Below are positions 9,491-24,998 of a stretch of DNA of 41,202 nucleotides, piece by piece. Source of the DNA: a virus; IMG/VR virus record IMGVR_UViG_3300030106_000725, positions 10,045 to 51,246 of that record. One strand, written 5' to 3'. How positions within the stretch are numbered: position 1 is the stretch's first letter; every line of letters begins with the position of its first letter. A model generated the notes under the pieces. It worked only from the letters and a program-made list of their open reading frames with translations. It searched no databases and was not told where the DNA came from. A program made the translations under genes and the position numbers.

Positions 9491-11334
9491 GTTCCTGTGG
9501 CTAAGAAATCATCTACCGCTCTAATTAAACCACCCTCTGCAGCAGATACAACTGGCTTGGCAGATACACCAGTTAATAACTCAATTAACCTGTTTAACTG
9601 CCCACTGTCAAAAGTTACTGGCTCAATCTTAGATGTCGCTGGTGCAAAAGGACTTGCTACAACTGTTGGCGTCTCTACAGGTAGCGTAGCTATTGGCTCT
9701 GTGCCACCAATGATGTTCGGTGGTCTGTCGTCATCTTTCTTTTCTTCTTCCTTCGGAGGAATTATAGGTCTTCTGATTATAGGCTCTTGATTATCATCAC
9801 CACCACCAATCGGCTCATTTGGATCTACACCCTCAACAGTCCTTCCAAATTGATCTTTTAACGCCACAACCCTACCACTATCATTTCGTACAATTCTATC
9901 TTCAGGCACATCACCTTTGGCTAATTTAGCTGCCATTCTATCTCTGCTAAATCTTTCAATGCCATCAAAAAATGATGGTAAGCCCAATCCTTGAAAAAAT
10001 GCTGGGTCAGTGCCAGGGCCTGCTTTTCTTTGACCAACTGGCACATTACTTAATCTTTCAATGTCAGCTAAAGTTTGTGCTGGTAAAACACCTAACGTGT
10101 CCTCTCTAGGGTCGGTGTTATCGGCAATCGTTAATTTTGGGTCTCTTCTGCCACCTGTCATTCCAACATTTGGTATATCTTTTTTTGGTCCTTTGTAAGT
10201 ATCAGGATCAAAAATAGTATCAAATGTAGCTCTCTCAGATCTGAGTGCATCTAAATCAGGACCTACAAACGGATCACTTCTACCTGTGCCACCTGCTAAG
10301 TCATCTGAAAAAGTTATTGGACCTAATGCTCTACCTCTTTGTGCCATCAACTCTTGTTGATTTTGTTGTAACCCTCTTTCAACATCAGTTAGAGGTGGAG
10401 AGCCACCAACTAAATTAGCAATCGCTCTTGCTTGATCTTGTGCAACTGTGCTTCTAGTTGATCCAACATTCGGTAAGTTTGCACCTGGTAGTCCAGTTTG
10501 AAAGTTTTTTAGTCCAACTGCTGGATCGGGAACTATGTTTTCAAACAAATCTATACCTAATCTTGGATCGCCCTCGCCTAATTTAGTTACACCAACATCA
10601 CCTAATACATCTTCTACATTAAAAGCCTTGCGTGAAAAATCTACTGGATTTACATTTGACGCTTGTATGATGCTATTTACAACTTTCTCACCTAAACTCG
10701 TCTTGTCAAATTCTGCACTGTCTTTTTGAGCAGCGTCTAATGCACCTATAATGTCATTGTTTTTTGCTCGATCTTGTAAATCCGCTCTTAGCTCTTTTCT
10801 AGTCTTTTGTGGCACATTTAATCTATCAAAGGCTTCTTCAATTGATTTATTTGTAAAATTTATCTTTGGTAAAGTTCTAGCACTTAGATTTTGTCCAGAT
10901 GGCATGGTTAAACCCATTGGCGTGGCAGAACTTGGGTCATCTGCAAATACATCTGTAGCAGGACTATCAAAATTTGTTGAACCTTGATCATCTAAGGCTT
11001 GTTGAAAACTATCTTCATCGCCACCTGTTCCACCAAAGCCTCCACCCCCAACGCTAAAATCACCAGCTGATGCGAAATCCCCAAAATCATCAACCTCGCC
11101 TCCAGTAAACATCATTTGCACTGGTGGATTGAATATATCTATATTAGCTGCGGGTGCCATCATGGGATTGGCACCCACCATAGGTGCTAATGGAGGATTC
11201 ATGGCACCATTCATATTCCTTAAAAACTCGTTAAAAGTGCCACGACTGGCAGCTGTAGTATCTAATTTTACTGAAGGAGGTTGTGCAGGTGCCGCTGGTG
11301 TCGGCATGAAACCACCCATAGGTCCGTTTGCCAT
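9487..11334 (-). CDS. Large low-complexity virion-associated protein, 615 aa
   Basis: Pro/Ala/Met-rich at the start, then Gly/Asp-rich, with a long Asp/Pro-rich middle and a C-terminal block ending SAAEGGLIRAVDDFLATGT. No enzymatic motif is visible. Two Gly-Gly patches (MMFTGGEVDDF near the N-terminus and EGGLIRAVDDF at the C-terminus) resemble patches in other virion proteins here. I choose ATG 11334 rather than the adjacent TTG; GGAG lies seven bases upstream, inside a hairpin. Position just before the large terminase suggests a structural or packaging-linked role, unproven. Confidence 0.75.
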   Translation of the reverse strand: MANGPMGGFMPTPAAPAQPPSVKLDTTAASRGTFNEFLRNMNGAMNPPLAPMVGANPMMAPAANIDIFNPPVQMMFTGGEVDDFGDFASAGDFSVGGGGFGGTGGDEDSFQQALDDQGSTNFDSPATDVFADDPSSATPMGLTMPSGQNLSARTLPKINFTNKSIEEAFDRLNVPQKTRKELRADLQDRAKNNDIIGALDAAQKDSAEFDKTSLGEKVVNSIIQASNVNPVDFSRKAFNVEDVLGDVGVTKLGEGDPRLGIDLFENIVPDPAVGLKNFQTGLPGANLPNVGSTRSTVAQDQARAIANLVGGSPPLTDVERGLQQNQQELMAQRGRALGPITFSDDLAGGTGRSDPFVGPDLDALRSERATFDTIFDPDTYKGPKKDIPNVGMTGGRRDPKLTIADNTDPREDTLGVLPAQTLADIERLSNVPVGQRKAGPGTDPAFFQGLGLPSFFDGIERFSRDRMAAKLAKGDVPEDRIVRNDSGRVVALKDQFGRTVEGVDPNEPIGGGDDNQEPIIRRPIIPPKEEEKKDDDRPPNIIGGTEPIATLPVETPTVVASPFAPATSKIEPVTFDSGQLNRLIELLTGVSAKPVVSAAEGGLIRAVDDFLATGT

Positions 11335-12206: not shown

Positions 12207-13322
12207 TTATCTTGTAAATCTATTCTGCAACCATTCCTTTAGATTATCTCTAACATTAGACCAAATACAATCGCTATTGTTATTTAATTGCATTGTACCA
12301 TTTGAGACTCTCTCGATCTCTGTGGGAATCTTGTATCCATTAAGATCGTACATTCCATTTGATGAACCATTTAAATGACCATAAAATTCCTGATTTAATG
12401 TGATCACACATTGAGTACAACCAACCTTCCTTCTAATTGTATTGATTGTGCGTCTCACAGATCTTGCATCGTTAATACCACATTGACTCATAATTTCTTG
12501 AGTCGTTGCACCATTAACAGATTGACACATTTCAAAAACTTTCCACAATTTAGAATAAGGAGGCATCGTGTTCCTTAATTCTTCTGTGTATCTTGTACCT
12601 TGATCAACTAAATTGAATCTTTGGTGATGTGAATAATCAACAAGAGTCACGATCCACTCAACAAAGTTTTTAAGTTTAACATTGTTAAATGTACCTTGAT
12701 GTTGTCTAAACTCGATTGTGAGTTTACCTCCACCATTTTCTTCAAGATGTGAAATGTTTATAGCATTAAATTTGCCTCCACAAACATTCTGCAATTGTCT
12801 TAAGTTTGTACAATTCTCGATGCGAGTAACTCTATCTGTCATGTTTCTACAATACCTTGAGTCTCTTCTACTAGGAGCAAGAAAAGAATTTATAATCAAT
12901 TGATGCTTGGCATATCTAAAACAAACATCTTTAATGACCTCGAATTGAATCGCATCGTTTGAGTCTTGAAAGTATTTGTTTTGTCTAAACTTAGCAATTG
13001 ATTTAGTATTAAATTCTTCTGCATCCATTGTAATAGGTTTTAAACCAACATGAACATGGTGACCACATGATTTAGTCACTCGACCTCCAAGCCTAATAAT
13101 AATATCATTAACCTCGCCTGAAATTTGCCATGTGGATTCTGCTTTAAAACTTAATGGAGGAAATACTACCTCGCCCCCATTAGGTAACGAGCCGTCTCTA
13201 ATTACTCTTAAATAATCTAAATGTGGATAGTTTGCGAGAATCTCATTCCTTAAAGTTTCTGGACTCAAATTATCAAATTCTCTTTCAAATCCTAAAGCTC
13301 TGTCTGTAGTGATATTAGTCAT
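12207..13322 (-). CDS. Amidoligase-family enzyme (COOH-NH2 ligase, glutamine-synthetase fold) with C-terminal helix-turn-helix
   Basis: 371 aa. Hallmarks of the Amidoligase_2 group appear in order: GFEREF (Gly11, Glu13, Glu15), RDGSLPNGGEVVFPPL (about 42-57), CGHHVHVGL (about 86-94), APSRRDSRYCR (about 148-158) and TIEFRQHQGTFNN (about 203-215). These are predicted to bind ATP, metal and a carboxylate and to form an amide bond, perhaps on a peptide or protein. Residues about 255-300 add a segment resembling a winged helix (TTQEIMSQCGINDARSVRRT). The promoter at 13.4 kb carries the shared operator, and AAGGA precedes the ATG. The cyclotransferase-like gene at 15909 is a possible functional partner. 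Confidence 0.85.
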   Translation of the reverse strand: MTNITTDRALGFEREFDNLSPETLRNEILANYPHLDYLRVIRDGSLPNGGEVVFPPLSFKAESTWQISGEVNDIIIRLGGRVTKSCGHHVHVGLKPITMDAEEFNTKSIAKFRQNKYFQDSNDAIQFEVIKDVCFRYAKHQLIINSFLAPSRRDSRYCRNMTDRVTRIENCTNLRQLQNVCGGKFNAINISHLEENGGGKLTIEFRQHQGTFNNVKLKNFVEWIVTLVDYSHHQRFNLVDQGTRYTEELRNTMPPYSKLWKVFEMCQSVNGATTQEIMSQCGINDARSVRRTINTIRRKVGCTQCVITLNQEFYGHLNGSSNGMYDLNGYKIPTEIERVSNGTMQLNNNSDCIWSNVRDNLKEWLQNRFTR

Positions 13323-16731: not shown

Positions 16732-16767
16732 TACTATATATATAAGCACTCATTACCTATATGTCAA
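16732..16767 (-). promoter_or_regulatory. Promoter P16.75 with operator
   Basis: -35 TTGACA (16762-16767), 17-base spacer, -10 TATATA (16739-16744). Plus-strand operator TAAGCACTCATTACCTA (16743-16759). The -35 lies in the last codons of the methyltransferase gene. It drives the 112-aa, cyclotransferase-like and zinc-ribbon genes and possibly terS. Confidence 0.85.
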
Positions 16768-18004
16768 ACAATTTTAACTGTGGTTTTATATTTTTTATTC
16801 TGGCTTTGGCGATTTCGTAGTATTCTTCTTCTTTTTCTATGCCAATGAACCTAAAATCTTCTTCTCTTGCACCCATGCCAGTTGATCCACTACCCATAAA
16901 CGGATCGAGAACAAGCCCTCCTTTAGGCGTTACCAGGCGAACAAGGTATCTCATAAGCTCCACTGGTTTAACTGTTGGGTGTGTGTTCGCTTTTATCTCA
17001 CCACCTAGTCCAGATTTACGCTCATCTTTTGATGTCTTTGCACAATAAAAATACCGAGAAGCGTTACCATGATCTCCGTAAGCTGGCATGAATTGTTCGG
17101 TGTCATTGAGTTCACCAGACCAAATCCCCTTGTGTGTTCGTTGTCTACTGACCTCTGTGCTGACAGTCTTTGGAAATATATCTTGTACTTGTTCGCTTCC
17201 GTCGTGCATTACATTACTAGGCCAACGACCTCTTGGGTCTGCATCTGCGTACTCCGATCCCTCCGACTTCATACCACTATTATCATCAGTCCATACGCCA
17301 TCTGTTGACCTAGCTTGGCGAACAACTTTTTTTCGTTTAGCGTTAGATGTCTGACCAAATGATAGCTTGTCCACACCGATTGCTTTTTTACTTTGTTCGC
17401 CTTGATCACGGAAGTCTGGCATTGTGTTTGGGTGCTTTACCTCGCCTTGTATCCGAGACTCGTCAATGTTTATTGCACCAGTCCGATGCTTCATCACGTT
17501 GTCCGACACCGACTTCTCCGACAAGGGCTTTCTTGCTAACACCATTGGTTCATGTGCTGGCTTTAAGGCAGTACCCCAACCATCACCGACTTTGTGGCTT
17601 TTAGGAAACCCGCTACCATACAACCAAATACATTGGTCTCTGATTTCAAACCCAGCATCTTCTATGGCACATGCCATTCTATGGTATGTTCGTGATCCAC
17701 TAAACGCTATCAAATGACCACCTGGTTTTAACAACTCATAACATTTACGCCATGTGTCTGCTTGGAAAGCTATATCGCCACCATCCCACTCCTTACCCAT
17801 AAAACCTTTTGACGCTCTAGCAAAAGCTCCGTCTGTACCGAACTGAGCTGGTGCTGAATCTTCTTTACTGAACCTTTTGACTATTGATGTAAGGTGATAC
17901 GGAGGATCAGTTACCACGCTATCAACCGAACATTTATCTATTGTATCCATGACTTCTAAACAGTCGCCATTATATACTGTGCTACCTTCTATTATTACTT
18001 CCAT
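16757..18004 (-). CDS. DNA amino-methyltransferase (N6-adenine or N4-cytosine), beta-class order
   Basis: 415 aa. The catalytic motif TDPPYHLTS (motif IV) is at about 37-45 and the AdoMet-binding motif VLDPFMGSGSTGMGA (motif I) near 365-379, an order typical of N6_N4_Mtase enzymes such as CcrM-like proteins. HPTVKPVELMRYLV precedes motif I, as expected. The long middle (about 150-330) is the probable target-recognition region. It would methylate phage DNA and protect it from host restriction. Base composition is visibly more GC-rich than neighbours, suggesting recent acquisition. No cognate nuclease seen. Confidence 0.92.
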   Translation of the reverse strand: MEVIIEGSTVYNGDCLEVMDTIDKCSVDSVVTDPPYHLTSIVKRFSKEDSAPAQFGTDGAFARASKGFMGKEWDGGDIAFQADTWRKCYELLKPGGHLIAFSGSRTYHRMACAIEDAGFEIRDQCIWLYGSGFPKSHKVGDGWGTALKPAHEPMVLARKPLSEKSVSDNVMKHRTGAINIDESRIQGEVKHPNTMPDFRDQGEQSKKAIGVDKLSFGQTSNAKRKKVVRQARSTDGVWTDDNSGMKSEGSEYADADPRGRWPSNVMHDGSEQVQDIFPKTVSTEVSRQRTHKGIWSGELNDTEQFMPAYGDHGNASRYFYCAKTSKDERKSGLGGEIKANTHPTVKPVELMRYLVRLVTPKGGLVLDPFMGSGSTGMGAREEDFRFIGIEKEEEYYEIAKARIKNIKPQLKLFDI

Positions 18005-20400: not shown

Positions 20401-20647
20401 AATCATCTAAAATACTTCTACCAAACACGTGAGTGCTTGTTTTGTACACTTTGCCATATTCTATTTCTTTTAGTGCACGGGGGTCATCTTCAAAGAGCTG
20501 TTCATCTGGACAATGTTGTGATCCAATATTAATGTTCTTTTTTTCTCTAAACAATAGTCTACGTTTCTTGCATCTATTACATAAAGTTTCTTTTTTATCT
20601 CGGACAAATCTATCACAATCAGCACATCTAGCGTATTTCTCTATCAT
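20393..20647 (-). CDS. Small zinc-binding protein, 84 aa
   Basis: Start at ATG 20647 with AAGGAGG upstream. CADC (about 8-11) and CNRC (about 23-26) form a treble-clef or ribbon-like zinc site in a basic context (KKRRLLFREKK). The C-terminal half is acidic. It overlaps the end of the cytosine methyltransferase gene by 20 bases. It may bind nucleic acid or act as a small regulator; no named family. Confidence 0.75.
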   Translation of the reverse strand: MIEKYARCADCDRFVRDKKETLCNRCKKRRLLFREKKNINIGSQHCPDEQLFEDDPRALKEIEYGKVYKTSTHVFGRSILDDLG

Positions 20648-21848
20648 TTTCTGCCTCCTTGATTGCATAAAATATCCGAGCCACCACCTGTGGCACGATA
20701 CTATTCCCTAAACATCTAAGTCGGTGTACCCTATTTCGTACCCCATTAGCCACTCGACCCACGTTGGGTTCAGGCTCCCAGGTGACTGGTTTTCTTCTGA
20801 AGTCTGTTCCATTACACCCTTGTATACTTTCCTCGGAAGACTCATTCTTTGACGATTCTCTTTCCAATTCTCTATGCTTCCCGAGTCCTTGTAATCCCTT
20901 GCCGTTGGTGTAGGGAACATCTCCTTTTTCGGATAGTCCCATTTCTCCATTCTTGGTGGTCTTAGTGTTACTCCCAGCATCTGTTCTGCTTGTTGTTCGG
21001 TCATCTCCCCAGCTTCCACTTTTTTTCTGAATATCATTGTCTGACCCATTGACGCATGTCCGTACCCCTTTGTCGTCGGTGTAGGCCACATTATCACGCT
21101 GTCTGCTAGGTTCAGACTGTGAGATGTCTGCCCGTCCTTGCTCAAGCATCTGTTGTTCGCTGTTAGTTCCGCTTGCGGGTGTTCTATCTCTTGTGTTGTC
21201 GGTGTTGGCCATAAGGTCGAAGATATCTGTTTGTACAAACTCATTGTCTGTTCGTCTACTTGTTCCCTCAAGTTCGCTGGTTTTGTTCTGCCTTTGCGAT
21301 GACCCTCCATTAGTTTGGTTGTTCCCTCTTCTGAACGTGGAGGTAGATGATCCATCGTGTTCGGTGTAGCCCACAATCCAGCATCGCATTCGTCTATGTT
21401 TGGCATCGACGGCTGCAGCTGGAATAAGATATGGTATGGCTTTATACCCGATACTTTCCAGGTCAACGAGACTTCTTCTGAGACCCATTGGCATTGTAAC
21501 AAAACCCGACACATTTTCGCCAATGACCCATCTAGGCCGTATGTCTTCAATAATCCTAACCATTTCGTGCCAGAGATCTCTGTCGTCTTCGCTGCCTCTT
21601 TGAGAGCCTGCAACCGACCAAGGTTGACATGGGAATCCTCCAACAACGATGTCTGCGTCTTTGTATTCTTTTGCATCAAAACTCCTTATATCACTATATA
21701 TTGGTACATCGTGCCAATGTTTTCGCAAGACTTTTTGACAATAATCATCTCTTTCAACAAAAGCTATTGTCTCAAAGCCACCTACTATTTTTTCGGCAGC
21801 ATAGCTAAAACCACCTATGCCACTAAATAAATCTACTATTTTAAACAT
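20628..21848 (-). CDS. dcm: DNA (cytosine-5) methyltransferase
   Basis: 406 aa from ATG 21848, which overlaps the primase stop. Motif I DLFSGIGGF (6-14), motif IV GFPCQPWS with catalytic Cys74, motif VI ENV (111-113), motif VIII HRRMRCWIVG (151-160) and C-terminal motifs IX/X (PNVGRVANGVRNRVHRLRCL and GNSIVP, about 381-386). It methylates cytosine C5, probably to evade restriction. Residues about 165-350, where target recognition should lie, are strikingly Ser/Asn/Thr/Arg-rich and poor in hydrophobics, because the same DNA carries a second long frame. More GC-rich than its surroundings. Confidence 0.95.
   Translation of the reverse strand: MFKIVDLFSGIGGFSYAAEKIVGGFETIAFVERDDYCQKVLRKHWHDVPIYSDIRSFDAKEYKDADIVVGGFPCQPWSVAGSQRGSEDDRDLWHEMVRIIEDIRPRWVIGENVSGFVTMPMGLRRSLVDLESIGYKAIPYLIPAAAVDAKHRRMRCWIVGYTEHDGSSTSTFRRGNNQTNGGSSQRQNKTSELEGTSRRTDNEFVQTDIFDLMANTDNTRDRTPASGTNSEQQMLEQGRADISQSEPSRQRDNVAYTDDKGVRTCVNGSDNDIQKKSGSWGDDRTTSRTDAGSNTKTTKNGEMGLSEKGDVPYTNGKGLQGLGKHRELERESSKNESSEESIQGCNGTDFRRKPVTWEPEPNVGRVANGVRNRVHRLRCLGNSIVPQVVARIFYAIKEAENDREIR
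20708..21676 (-). CDS. Overlapping gene nested in the cytosine methyltransferase gene, 322 aa
   Basis: This frame (+1 relative to the methyltransferase) is open for 322 codons from ATG 21676, and AAGGAG lies five bases before that ATG. The peptide looks like an ordinary protein: LGRLQALKEAAKTTEISGTK near the start, then GLDGSLAKMCRVLL and SLTWKVSG. Four WPTPT-like repeats follow (WATPNT, WPTPTT, WPTPTT, FPTPTA), and the end is GSLNPTWVEWLMGYEIGYTD. I recall such WPTPTA...NPxWVEWLMGxPxGWT proteins as common in phages, often labelled methyltransferase or hypothetical. Translation is predicted, not shown; part of the conservation may be forced by the methyltransferase frame. Confidence 0.6.
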   Translation of the reverse strand: MQKNTKTQTSLLEDSHVNLGRLQALKEAAKTTEISGTKWLGLLKTYGLDGSLAKMCRVLLQCQWVSEEVSLTWKVSGIKPYHILFQLQPSMPNIDECDAGLWATPNTMDHLPPRSEEGTTKLMEGHRKGRTKPANLREQVDEQTMSLYKQISSTLWPTPTTQEIEHPQAELTANNRCLSKDGQTSHSLNLADSVIMWPTPTTKGYGHASMGQTMIFRKKVEAGEMTEQQAEQMLGVTLRPPRMEKWDYPKKEMFPTPTARDYKDSGSIENWKENRQRMSLPRKVYKGVMEQTSEENQSPGSLNPTWVEWLMGYEIGYTDLDV

Positions 21849-24058: not shown

Positions 24059-24784
24059 TCAACCTTGCTCCCAACATGTATCTGCAAACTGACAAAACTT
24101 ACATTCAAAAACATCTCTGTTCTGTGCTATTCTAGGCAACATTTCATTTTGCTTAGATGCTCTTAATATATCAACTGCCCTATCACTAGCATATTGTGCC
24201 AAATTCTGATTAAACGGAACTAACTCGTAAAAAATTTCACTAGTATTTTTGTTGATAACTGTAAACAAACAAGGATTGTCTGTTAGCTCCATATATGCTT
24301 GATACAACGCAACTTGAACCTCATAAGTGGGATTGGCTTTTATGCCTTTCATTTTAAAGTCTCTAAACTTTTTTTCATTGGCAGACTTGCACTCCCACAA
24401 CATTGGATAATCTACACTTAAAGGTCCAGAACAAATAACACCATCTATATGACCCTTGATTTCATCCTCTGCTATGGAAAAACCAAATTGTTCGCCATTA
24501 CTGTCCATAGTTCTTATGTCAAATCCAGCGTTTCTAATCCAACCAGCCATACTTGTTTCCAACTCATGTCCTAACTGAAATACTCTTAAAGTCCTGGCGT
24601 TAAACTTTTTTTCCTCATCAGGTTCACAACCAGTGTATATGTATTGTATTTTTCTTGCACACTTATCCCCCAACATTGATGCACCTAGATACTTACGCCT
24701 CGGTTCTTTCCTATTTTTGTCTACAATAGTTTGATCAATAATTTCCTCAAAAAGGTATTTCGTCTTCGTTGATTTCTGATTCAT
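24059..24784 (-). CDS. Cas4/RecB-like PD-(D/E)xK nuclease with Fe-S cysteines
   Basis: About 241 aa. Nuclease motifs in order: GHIDGVI (metal-binding Asp), LWECKSA (Glu-x-Lys) and YEVQVALYQAYM (the QxxxY motif). One Cys near the N-terminus (GDKCARK) and three near the C-terminus (CKFCQFADTC) match the four-Cys iron-sulfur arrangement of Cas4 and AddB exonucleases. It probably resects DNA ends for recombination with the Sak4-like ATPase. The start is uncertain: ATGs at 24847, 24799 and 24784 all overlap the preceding gene; I chose the shortest overlap. Confidence 0.88.
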   Translation of the reverse strand: MNQKSTKTKYLFEEIIDQTIVDKNRKEPRRKYLGASMLGDKCARKIQYIYTGCEPDEEKKFNARTLRVFQLGHELETSMAGWIRNAGFDIRTMDSNGEQFGFSIAEDEIKGHIDGVICSGPLSVDYPMLWECKSANEKKFRDFKMKGIKANPTYEVQVALYQAYMELTDNPCLFTVINKNTSEIFYELVPFNQNLAQYASDRAVDILRASKQNEMLPRIAQNRDVFECKFCQFADTCWEQG

Positions 24785-24998
24785 CTTGCTTTTCATAGAC
24801 ATATTCAAGAAGTAGTTTGTCGAGTCTGTCCTTTGTGTATTGTTCATCTGAATCTATCCTTTTTGAGAATTGCATAATTAATATTGTGACGAGTATTTCA
24901 TCTTCACTAAGTTCGCTTAACTTTTTATCCCAACCAATTCTTGTAAATAATTTAGTTAAGTTTTTTAATGAATCGTCTCCGATTGTGGGTTTATCCAT
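24747..24998 (-). CDS. Small acidic protein, 83 aa
   Basis: Helical and acidic with a short hydrophobic helix (DEILVTILIMQFSKRI) and an acidic C-terminus ending DEIPF, a tail similar to acidic protein-interaction tips. GGAGAAGG precedes the ATG. It lies among replication and recombination genes, overlapping both neighbours. An ending of this type can be a docking peptide, but this is conjecture. Confidence 0.65.
   Translation of the reverse strand: MDKPTIGDDSLKNLTKLFTRIGWDKKLSELSEDEILVTILIMQFSKRIDSDEQYTKDRLDKLLLEYVYEKQDESEINEDEIPF

Follow-up and report, generated by a model that had tools for sequence, protein, structure and literature searches.

Multispecific phage methyltransferases of the SPbeta/phi3T type are single-chain enzymes. 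For M.EcoHK31I, Lee, Kam and Shaw reportedly found in 1995 that the small gene lies within the large gene in a different frame and that methylation depends on both proteins; the title of their paper is said to state that the enzyme 'requires two proteins'. The two open reading frames (ORFs) described here, alpha and beta, are located in a 41,202-nucleotide stretch of viral DNA (the window), taken from a virus record 51,246 bases long (IMG/VR record IMGVR_UViG_3300030106_000725, positions 10,045 to 51,246). Alpha is a C5-cytosine methyltransferase ORF, and beta lies within it in the +1 frame. We consider it very probable that the two overlapping frames specify the two subunits of a single, split C5-cytosine methyltransferase.

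The natural C5 methyltransferase M.EcoHK31I is made of two polypeptides, a large one carrying motifs I-VIII and X and a small one carrying motif IX (PMC3404938). M.AquI also consists of two chains; the split falls after motif VIII and before motif IX, within the variable region, and its small chain carries both IX and X (PMC3404938). Likened by motif description, the window shows the same split as M.EcoHK31I (YGGCCR), with I-VIII and X in alpha and IX in beta. Beta, a protein of 322 amino acids with four modules, is set against the small chain of that enzyme, and the reported position of the small chain in another frame of the large gene recurs in the window. M.AquI (CYCGRG) shares the two-chain organization, and its layout is found in those relatives that carry IX and X in beta (L032-L034, L234, L248, L249); the window differs in keeping motif X in alpha and in having beta nested wholly inside alpha. 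The SPbeta/phi3T-type enzymes contain serial modules of ~40 amino acids in variable number between motifs VIII and IX, as beta does, but here the putative recognition modules reside in a separate, nested-frame protein.

Overlapping pairs annotated as 'DNA-cytosine methyltransferase' exist in Paenibacillus phage Leyra (gp61/gp62) and Escherichia phage K1ind1 ('C-specific methylase'/'Mte8-like'). In both pairs the second gene is nested at +1 as in the window, and its product belongs to the beta family; the pairs themselves are known as annotations only. The first-pass annotation of the window had described such proteins as separately annotated in phages, which is right for Leyra gp62 and the K1ind1 'Mte8-like' protein. 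In the literature collection searched, nested phage methyltransferases led only to the M.EcoHK31I and M.AquI literature and to no paper explaining the annotated phage overlaps. A two-subunit C5 methyltransferase with the M.EcoHK31I motif split is already known. New are the breadth of the arrangement (hundreds of phage and prophage loci, with unannotated cases in epsilon15 and N15 among them), the evidence from selection, the finding that the alpha spacer is a passenger, the location of the modules in the nested frame, and forms intermediate between nested and split genes.

The nested frame and its relatives

Alpha runs on the minus strand from ATG 21848 to a stop at 20628 (406 amino acids), directly downstream of a primase/helicase-like gene. 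Its frame 0 contains motifs I, IV (PCQ), VI, VIII, and X, and the protein belongs to the C5-cytosine methyltransferase domain family PF00145. The motif IX that C5-cytosine methyltransferases carry between the variable region and motif X of the same chain is not recognisable in frame 0 of the window's alpha; it is read in the +1 frame. The complete C5 methyltransferase motif set is present at the locus only if the alpha and beta chains are counted together. Beta is a +1-frame ORF of 322 codons (21676-20708, minus strand) that lies wholly within alpha and has the Shine-Dalgarno (SD) sequence AAGGAG five bases before its ATG, exactly as the first-pass annotation had described it. The features of the locus are as follows:

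20628..21848, minus: alpha, C5-cytosine methyltransferase ORF (PF00145, E=1.1e-45; phrog_363, E=1.1e-71; TIGR00675, 144 bits, cut-off 100.65)
21810..21833, minus: alpha motif I, DLFSGIGG, outside the overlap
21682..21687, minus: SD sequence AAGGAG of beta, 5 bases ahead of ATG 21676 (from the sequence, and from SD enrichment in homologues)
20708..21676, minus: beta, nested +1 ORF, 322 amino acids, proposed motif IX/target-recognition subunit (0 of 4000 shuffles as open; ratio of nonsynonymous to synonymous change, dN/dS, of the frame 0.21-0.41 in the relatives' overlap; phrog_1008 'DNA methyltransferase', E=1.5e-26)
21615..21641, minus: alpha motif IV, GGFPCQPWS, which includes the catalytic Cys and lies within the overlap
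21389..21529, minus: N-terminal block GSLAKM...SLTWKV...ILFQLQPSMPNIDE, conserved among beta proteins, overprinting alpha motifs VI-VIII
21372..21398, minus: alpha motif VIII, HRRMRCWIV, inside the overlap
20766..21371, minus: low-complexity spacer of alpha, passenger of beta (dNN/dSN 1.45 [1.35-1.57] in relatives; littered with stops where motif X is in the beta frame)
20720..20770, minus: beta motif IX, NPTWVEWLMGYEIGYTD (the L315 equivalent NPDWVEWLMGYPISW aligns with HPRECARVMGYPDSY of M.HhaI)
20718..20765, minus: alpha segment NVGRVANGVRNRVHRL immediately before motif X, sharing its DNA with beta motif IX
20688..20711, minus: alpha motif X, LGNSIVPQ, starting where beta ends

When the synonymous codons of alpha were shuffled, none of 4000 shuffles left the +1 frame as open (mean of 9.8 stops versus the single terminal stop observed). 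The third frame contained 28 stops versus 26 expected from the same shuffles. An SD match of at least 4 nucleotides precedes 79%, and one of 6 nucleotides 31%, of 270 first nested ATGs; the corresponding values for controls in the same genes (+2-frame ATGs and random positions) are 21-23% and 1-2%. The SD sequence is retained despite differing alpha codons beneath it, which read GAT-ATA-AGG-AGT in the window and GAT-GTA-AAG-GAG in L035 and its relatives. An ORF of 157 amino acids on the opposite strand (21357-21830, plus) spans the 5' part of the overlap and is probably due to chance.

Relatives of beta were sought in viral contigs and in one genome per bacterial or archaeal species, and they were found in phages and in bacterial contigs of many phyla; the relatives found are lower bounds. 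Among the matches listed, motif IX lies at +1 in 256 of the 262 loci that have motif IV and a beta-type IX, and alpha stays open past a motif IX at +1 in 244 of the 262. Because this sample had been drawn with beta as the query, a second one was assembled with alpha motifs I-VIII alone; the resulting 85 methyltransferases represent the clade nearest the query rather than all C5 methyltransferases. In 65 of them, beta was open and a strict motif IX lay at +1. The exceptions inspected mostly had a variant motif IX, likewise at +1 (NPQWVAWLMGYP, HPTFVEAMMGYP, QPAFVEWVMGFP and others), or were cut by the contig end, and none had motif IX in frame 0. A search with a degenerate DNA pattern for motif IV recovered only 19 loci.

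Selection on the two frames

Between motifs IV and IX of 237 nonredundant loci, the +1 frame contained 0 stops, whereas 841 were expected from codon shuffles; the zero is partly due to the choice of loci with an open frame. The +2 frame of the same loci had 2979 stops versus 2978 expected. Among the +1 loci of the 262-locus sample (alpha open past IX or stopped before IX), only one had a beta ORF starting downstream of motif IV.

Divergence and substitution ratios were determined for 69 sequence pairs, which fall into 19 clusters. At alpha codon positions 1/2/3, the differences amounted to 0.134/0.101/0.268 ahead of beta, 0.086/0.037/0.139 across motifs IV-VIII, 0.271/0.125/0.104 within the spacer, 0.116/0.031/0.060 for motif IX, and 0.098/0.060/0.340 past the beta stop. 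Thus, the fast position shifts to the third codon position of beta in the spacer and reverts after the overlap. Taken singly, 16 of the 19 clusters had alpha position 1 as the fastest in the spacer.

The ratios were calculated with a simplified version of our own of the overlap-aware dNN/dSN and dNN/dNS approach. Alpha gave 0.26 upstream, 0.19 over IV-VIII, 1.45 [1.35-1.57] in the spacer, 0.39 at IX, and 0.12 downstream. The corresponding values of the +1 frame were 1.07, 0.41, 0.26, 0.21, and 1.26, and the +2 control frame never fell below 1 in any region. Thus, alpha and beta are both constrained over motifs IV-VIII, and beta alone is constrained in the spacer. Given a ratio of 1.45 for alpha versus 0.26 for beta, the alpha spacer is a passenger of the nested gene, and its low-complexity Ser/Asn/Thr/Arg text results from beta codons being read out of frame, as the first-pass annotation had suspected. 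Judged by these substitution patterns, beta is a real protein-coding gene under protein-level selection.

The same annotation had proposed an old dual-coding locus, to be judged by +1 stops in homologues, SD conservation, and constraint at synonymous sites of the methyltransferase. All three speak for it: +1 stops are missing (0 versus 841 in the 237 loci, 0 versus 170 in a second, distant clade), the SD sequence is conserved (79% versus 21-23% at 4 nucleotides or more), and third-position divergence of alpha is lower within the overlap (0.14 and 0.10) than upstream of it (0.27) or past the nested stop (0.34). Few long same-strand overlaps are known with conservation of both proteins, and most such cases are contested. 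The alpha/beta overlap is deeply conserved, statistically unambiguous, and functionally readable as two halves of one enzyme.

The second clade comprises divergent alpha genes with a nested +1 beta; they occur in Escherichia K1 phages (K1ind1 and others related to it), in coliphage N15 (gp58) and Salmonella phage epsilon15, and on plasmids of Enterobacter and Citrobacter. Its beta proteins end in QLNPxxxRWLMGxP. In 83 of 85 loci, motif IX is at +1 and both alpha and beta are open; the +1 frame has 0 stops where 170 were expected, and the +2 frame 730 versus 713 expected. The +1 ratios are 0.54/0.49/0.23 within the overlap and ~1.1-1.2 outside, and alpha reaches 0.93 in the spacer. The nested gene is labelled 'Mte8-like' in Escherichia K1 phages and has no annotation in the classical phages N15 and epsilon15, where it is located as follows:

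L434:16547-17542: N15 gp58 locus, nested +1 ORF of 214 amino acids from the first ATG, with motif IX and the strong SD-like sequence GGGAGG
L435:14021-15190: epsilon15 locus, nested +1 ORF of 331 amino acids from the first ATG, with motif IX and the strong SD-like sequence AAAGGAG

Motif IX and the modules of beta

The beta C-terminus has the form NPxWVEWLMGxPxGWTD, and motif IX of the window includes NPTWVEWLMGY, which is missing from alpha. We consider beta very likely to be the motif-IX-carrying subunit of a split C5 methyltransferase, judging from its sequence relatives; this identity had escaped the first-pass annotation. There, motifs IX and X of the methyltransferase had been placed on the same DNA as the last conserved block of beta. 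The shared DNA is real, but the alpha frame reads EPNVGRVANGVRNRVHRL at this site, which is the segment preceding motif X and not motif IX. Motif IX is read in the nested frame (NPTWVEWLMGYEIGYTD), and beta stops where alpha motif X begins.

The assignment is based on relatives in which the parts are arranged differently. L315 is a natural single ORF with motifs I, IV, VIII, the beta-type block, and X in one frame. When aligned with M.HhaI, its LNPDWVEWLMGYPISW matches LHPRECARVMGYPDSY, followed by GNSVV on GNSVV; taken as a domain of its own, this motif IX match is weak, but it comes in the correct order behind a strong first domain. In L032-L034, L234, L248, and L249, motif X follows the motif IX block in the beta frame, and alpha is filled with stops past motif VIII. 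The betas of these loci match phrog_1008 over almost the full length of that family (that of L032-L034 is 42% identical to the window's), and the C-termini of the L234 and L248 betas also match the methyltransferase family phrog_363. The motif IX block and the 'PRVxxxxxNRxxRLKxxGN' segment are separate and stand in series in L032, L234, L248, and L249. In the window, by contrast, a single stretch of 50 bases serves for both, read as the block in beta and as the pre-motif-X segment in alpha. Because both stand in series in these relatives, the block is motif IX and the pre-X segment a different element. The M.AquI-like arrangement with motif X in the beta frame occurs in at least four lineages, and these relatives would reveal the fate of the passenger frame once it is no longer needed. 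In L032:2501-3754, L234:3287-4378 (minus), L248:6936-7886 (minus), and L249:10652-11809, alpha ends soon after motif VIII.

Upstream of motif IX, beta contains the four repeats noticed in the first-pass annotation as WPTPT-like, which begin with WATPN, WPTPT, WPTPT, and FPTPT:

21212..21373, minus: module 1, WATPNTMDHLPPRSEE..., 54 amino acids, related module in 58 loci
21089..21211, minus: module 2, WPTPTTQEIEHPQ..., 41 amino acids (module analysis)
20918..21088, minus: module 3, WPTPTTKGYGHASMG..., 57 amino acids, related module in 50 loci
20771..20917, minus: module 4, FPTPTARDYKDSG..., 49 amino acids (module analysis)

Each beta carries 1-7 such modules upstream of IX, starting with W/L/F-x-TP and having a median length of 41 amino acids (254 proteins with 753 modules altogether). 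Modules related to each other turn up at differing positions across loci; with the single-linkage clustering used, the number of types is rough. The recognition domain of C5 methyltransferases is located between motifs VIII and IX (PMC3404938), and the WPTP modules look like target-recognition cassettes that might contact DNA. We judge a further proposal to be about as likely as not: the nested frame would be a specificity locus in which swapping the 1-7 interchangeable cassettes of beta alters the number and identity of methylated sites, with alpha as an unconstrained linker dragged along. If this is true, the cassettes must be open in two frames at once, which places a filter on exchangeable modules. 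At L068 (~2065-2365), an intact alpha/beta pair is followed downstream by a small additional piece that contains a single WPTP module plus motif IX and resembles a spare cassette.

Mechanism and rival explanations

According to the mechanism we propose, frame 0 would yield alpha as the S-adenosylmethionine-binding and catalytic domain with motifs I-VIII and X. The +1 frame, presumably initiated independently at its own SD sequence and ATG, would yield beta with its N-terminal block, WPTP array, and motif IX. Between motifs VIII and X, alpha would be a mere linker whose residues are dictated by beta codons, provided that no stop arises. Both chains would then assemble, with beta contributing the small DNA-recognition domain and motif IX and alpha the catalysis, as the motif distribution and M.EcoHK31I suggest; by the same analogy, both chains are probably needed for activity. 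The complex may methylate phage DNA, probably as a defence against host restriction. The arrangement could have originated by a shift that moved the variable region and motif IX to +1, after which the N-terminal block of beta overprinted the catalytic core and the alpha spacer overprinted the modules. Many phage and prophage 'DNA cytosine methyltransferase' annotations would in that case cover half an enzyme, which would account for inactive cloned genes and has a bearing on predicting phage escape from restriction.

Several observations weigh against this two-subunit reading. AlphaFold2 single-chain models of the window beta and of the short relative L049 reached a predicted local distance difference test score of only 65.0 and 64.2, respectively, with predicted template modelling scores of 0.33-0.34 and no meaningful match in the PDB. 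Because the models are poor, a DNA-recognition role of the modules leans on where they lie, on their modularity, and on motif IX. In L315, motif IX is in frame and the spacer resembles the alpha passenger, so the WPTP modules may be dispensable in some enzymes. In M.EcoHK31I, the recognition domain is predicted in the large subunit (PMC3404938), whereas the alpha spacer of the window is unconstrained (1.45 versus 0.26 for beta) and the modules are in beta. Alpha has a stop before motif X, with beta intact, in L075/L225, L096, L131, L162, and L252; the single stop in L075, L096, L131, L162, and L252 may be a sequencing error, decay, or a real truncation. Finally, the case for expression, assembly, and methylation is read from sequence.

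Beta could also be a real protein with a role outside the methyltransferase: a phage protein of other function, or a selfish element, that overprinted the gene out of frame. The lack of a significant Pfam family for beta, like the AlphaFold models that match no methyltransferase fold, would suit such a protein. NCBIfam likewise gave nothing significant, and profile searches with beta or the M.AquI-like L248 beta found no solved structure. Out-of-frame elements do occur in phage methylases: the ShiLan insertion element encodes an out-of-frame HNH endonuclease (PMC11855218) and resembles beta in placing a second protein in another frame of a methylase while keeping the host frame open. It is, however, a patchily distributed homing insertion, whereas beta is a constant partner that bears a methyltransferase motif. 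We rejected an HNH element model for beta because of this constant association with alpha and because the PHROG and Pfam family matches of beta include neither HNH nor any other nuclease. More generally, an unrelated protein is difficult to reconcile with an end block that aligns with M.HhaI motif IX in the natural one-chain enzyme L315, that in four lineages precedes a motif X belonging to the same chain, and that supplies the motif missing from alpha. Unlike a mobile element, beta also accompanies alpha in essentially every complete relative recovered with the alpha-only query. We regard this explanation as unlikely.

Somewhat less probable still is a single chain made by programmed frameshifting, in which ribosomes would enter the +1 frame past motif VIII and return to frame 0 past IX. 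Frames joined in this way would give the canonical motif order I-X, and L315 is a natural one-frame relative. Two shifts would be required, however, and the SD sequence and ATG of beta lie upstream of motif IV; moreover, the beta block opposite IV-VIII is under selection (0.41), although it would not be needed if the shift followed VIII. The idea that codon bias and low-complexity sequence merely happen to leave the +1 frame open, and that it yields no protein, can practically be dismissed. Chance can keep alternative frames open, and the alpha spacer is compositionally simple (Ser/Asn/Thr/Arg), but neither the shuffles (0 of 4000) nor the stop counts (0 versus 841) fit this idea. The SD enrichment and the confinement of +1 ratios of 0.2-0.4 to the overlap also contradict it, and beta is still open in loci whose alpha spacer has broken down into a run of stops.

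Apart from the split methyltransferase locus, the window contains a second methyltransferase gene (16757-18004, minus; phrog_67, 415 amino acids), an amidoligase-like gene (12207-13322, minus; phrog_2443), and a gene for a Cas4-domain exonuclease (24059-24847, minus; phrog_1990).
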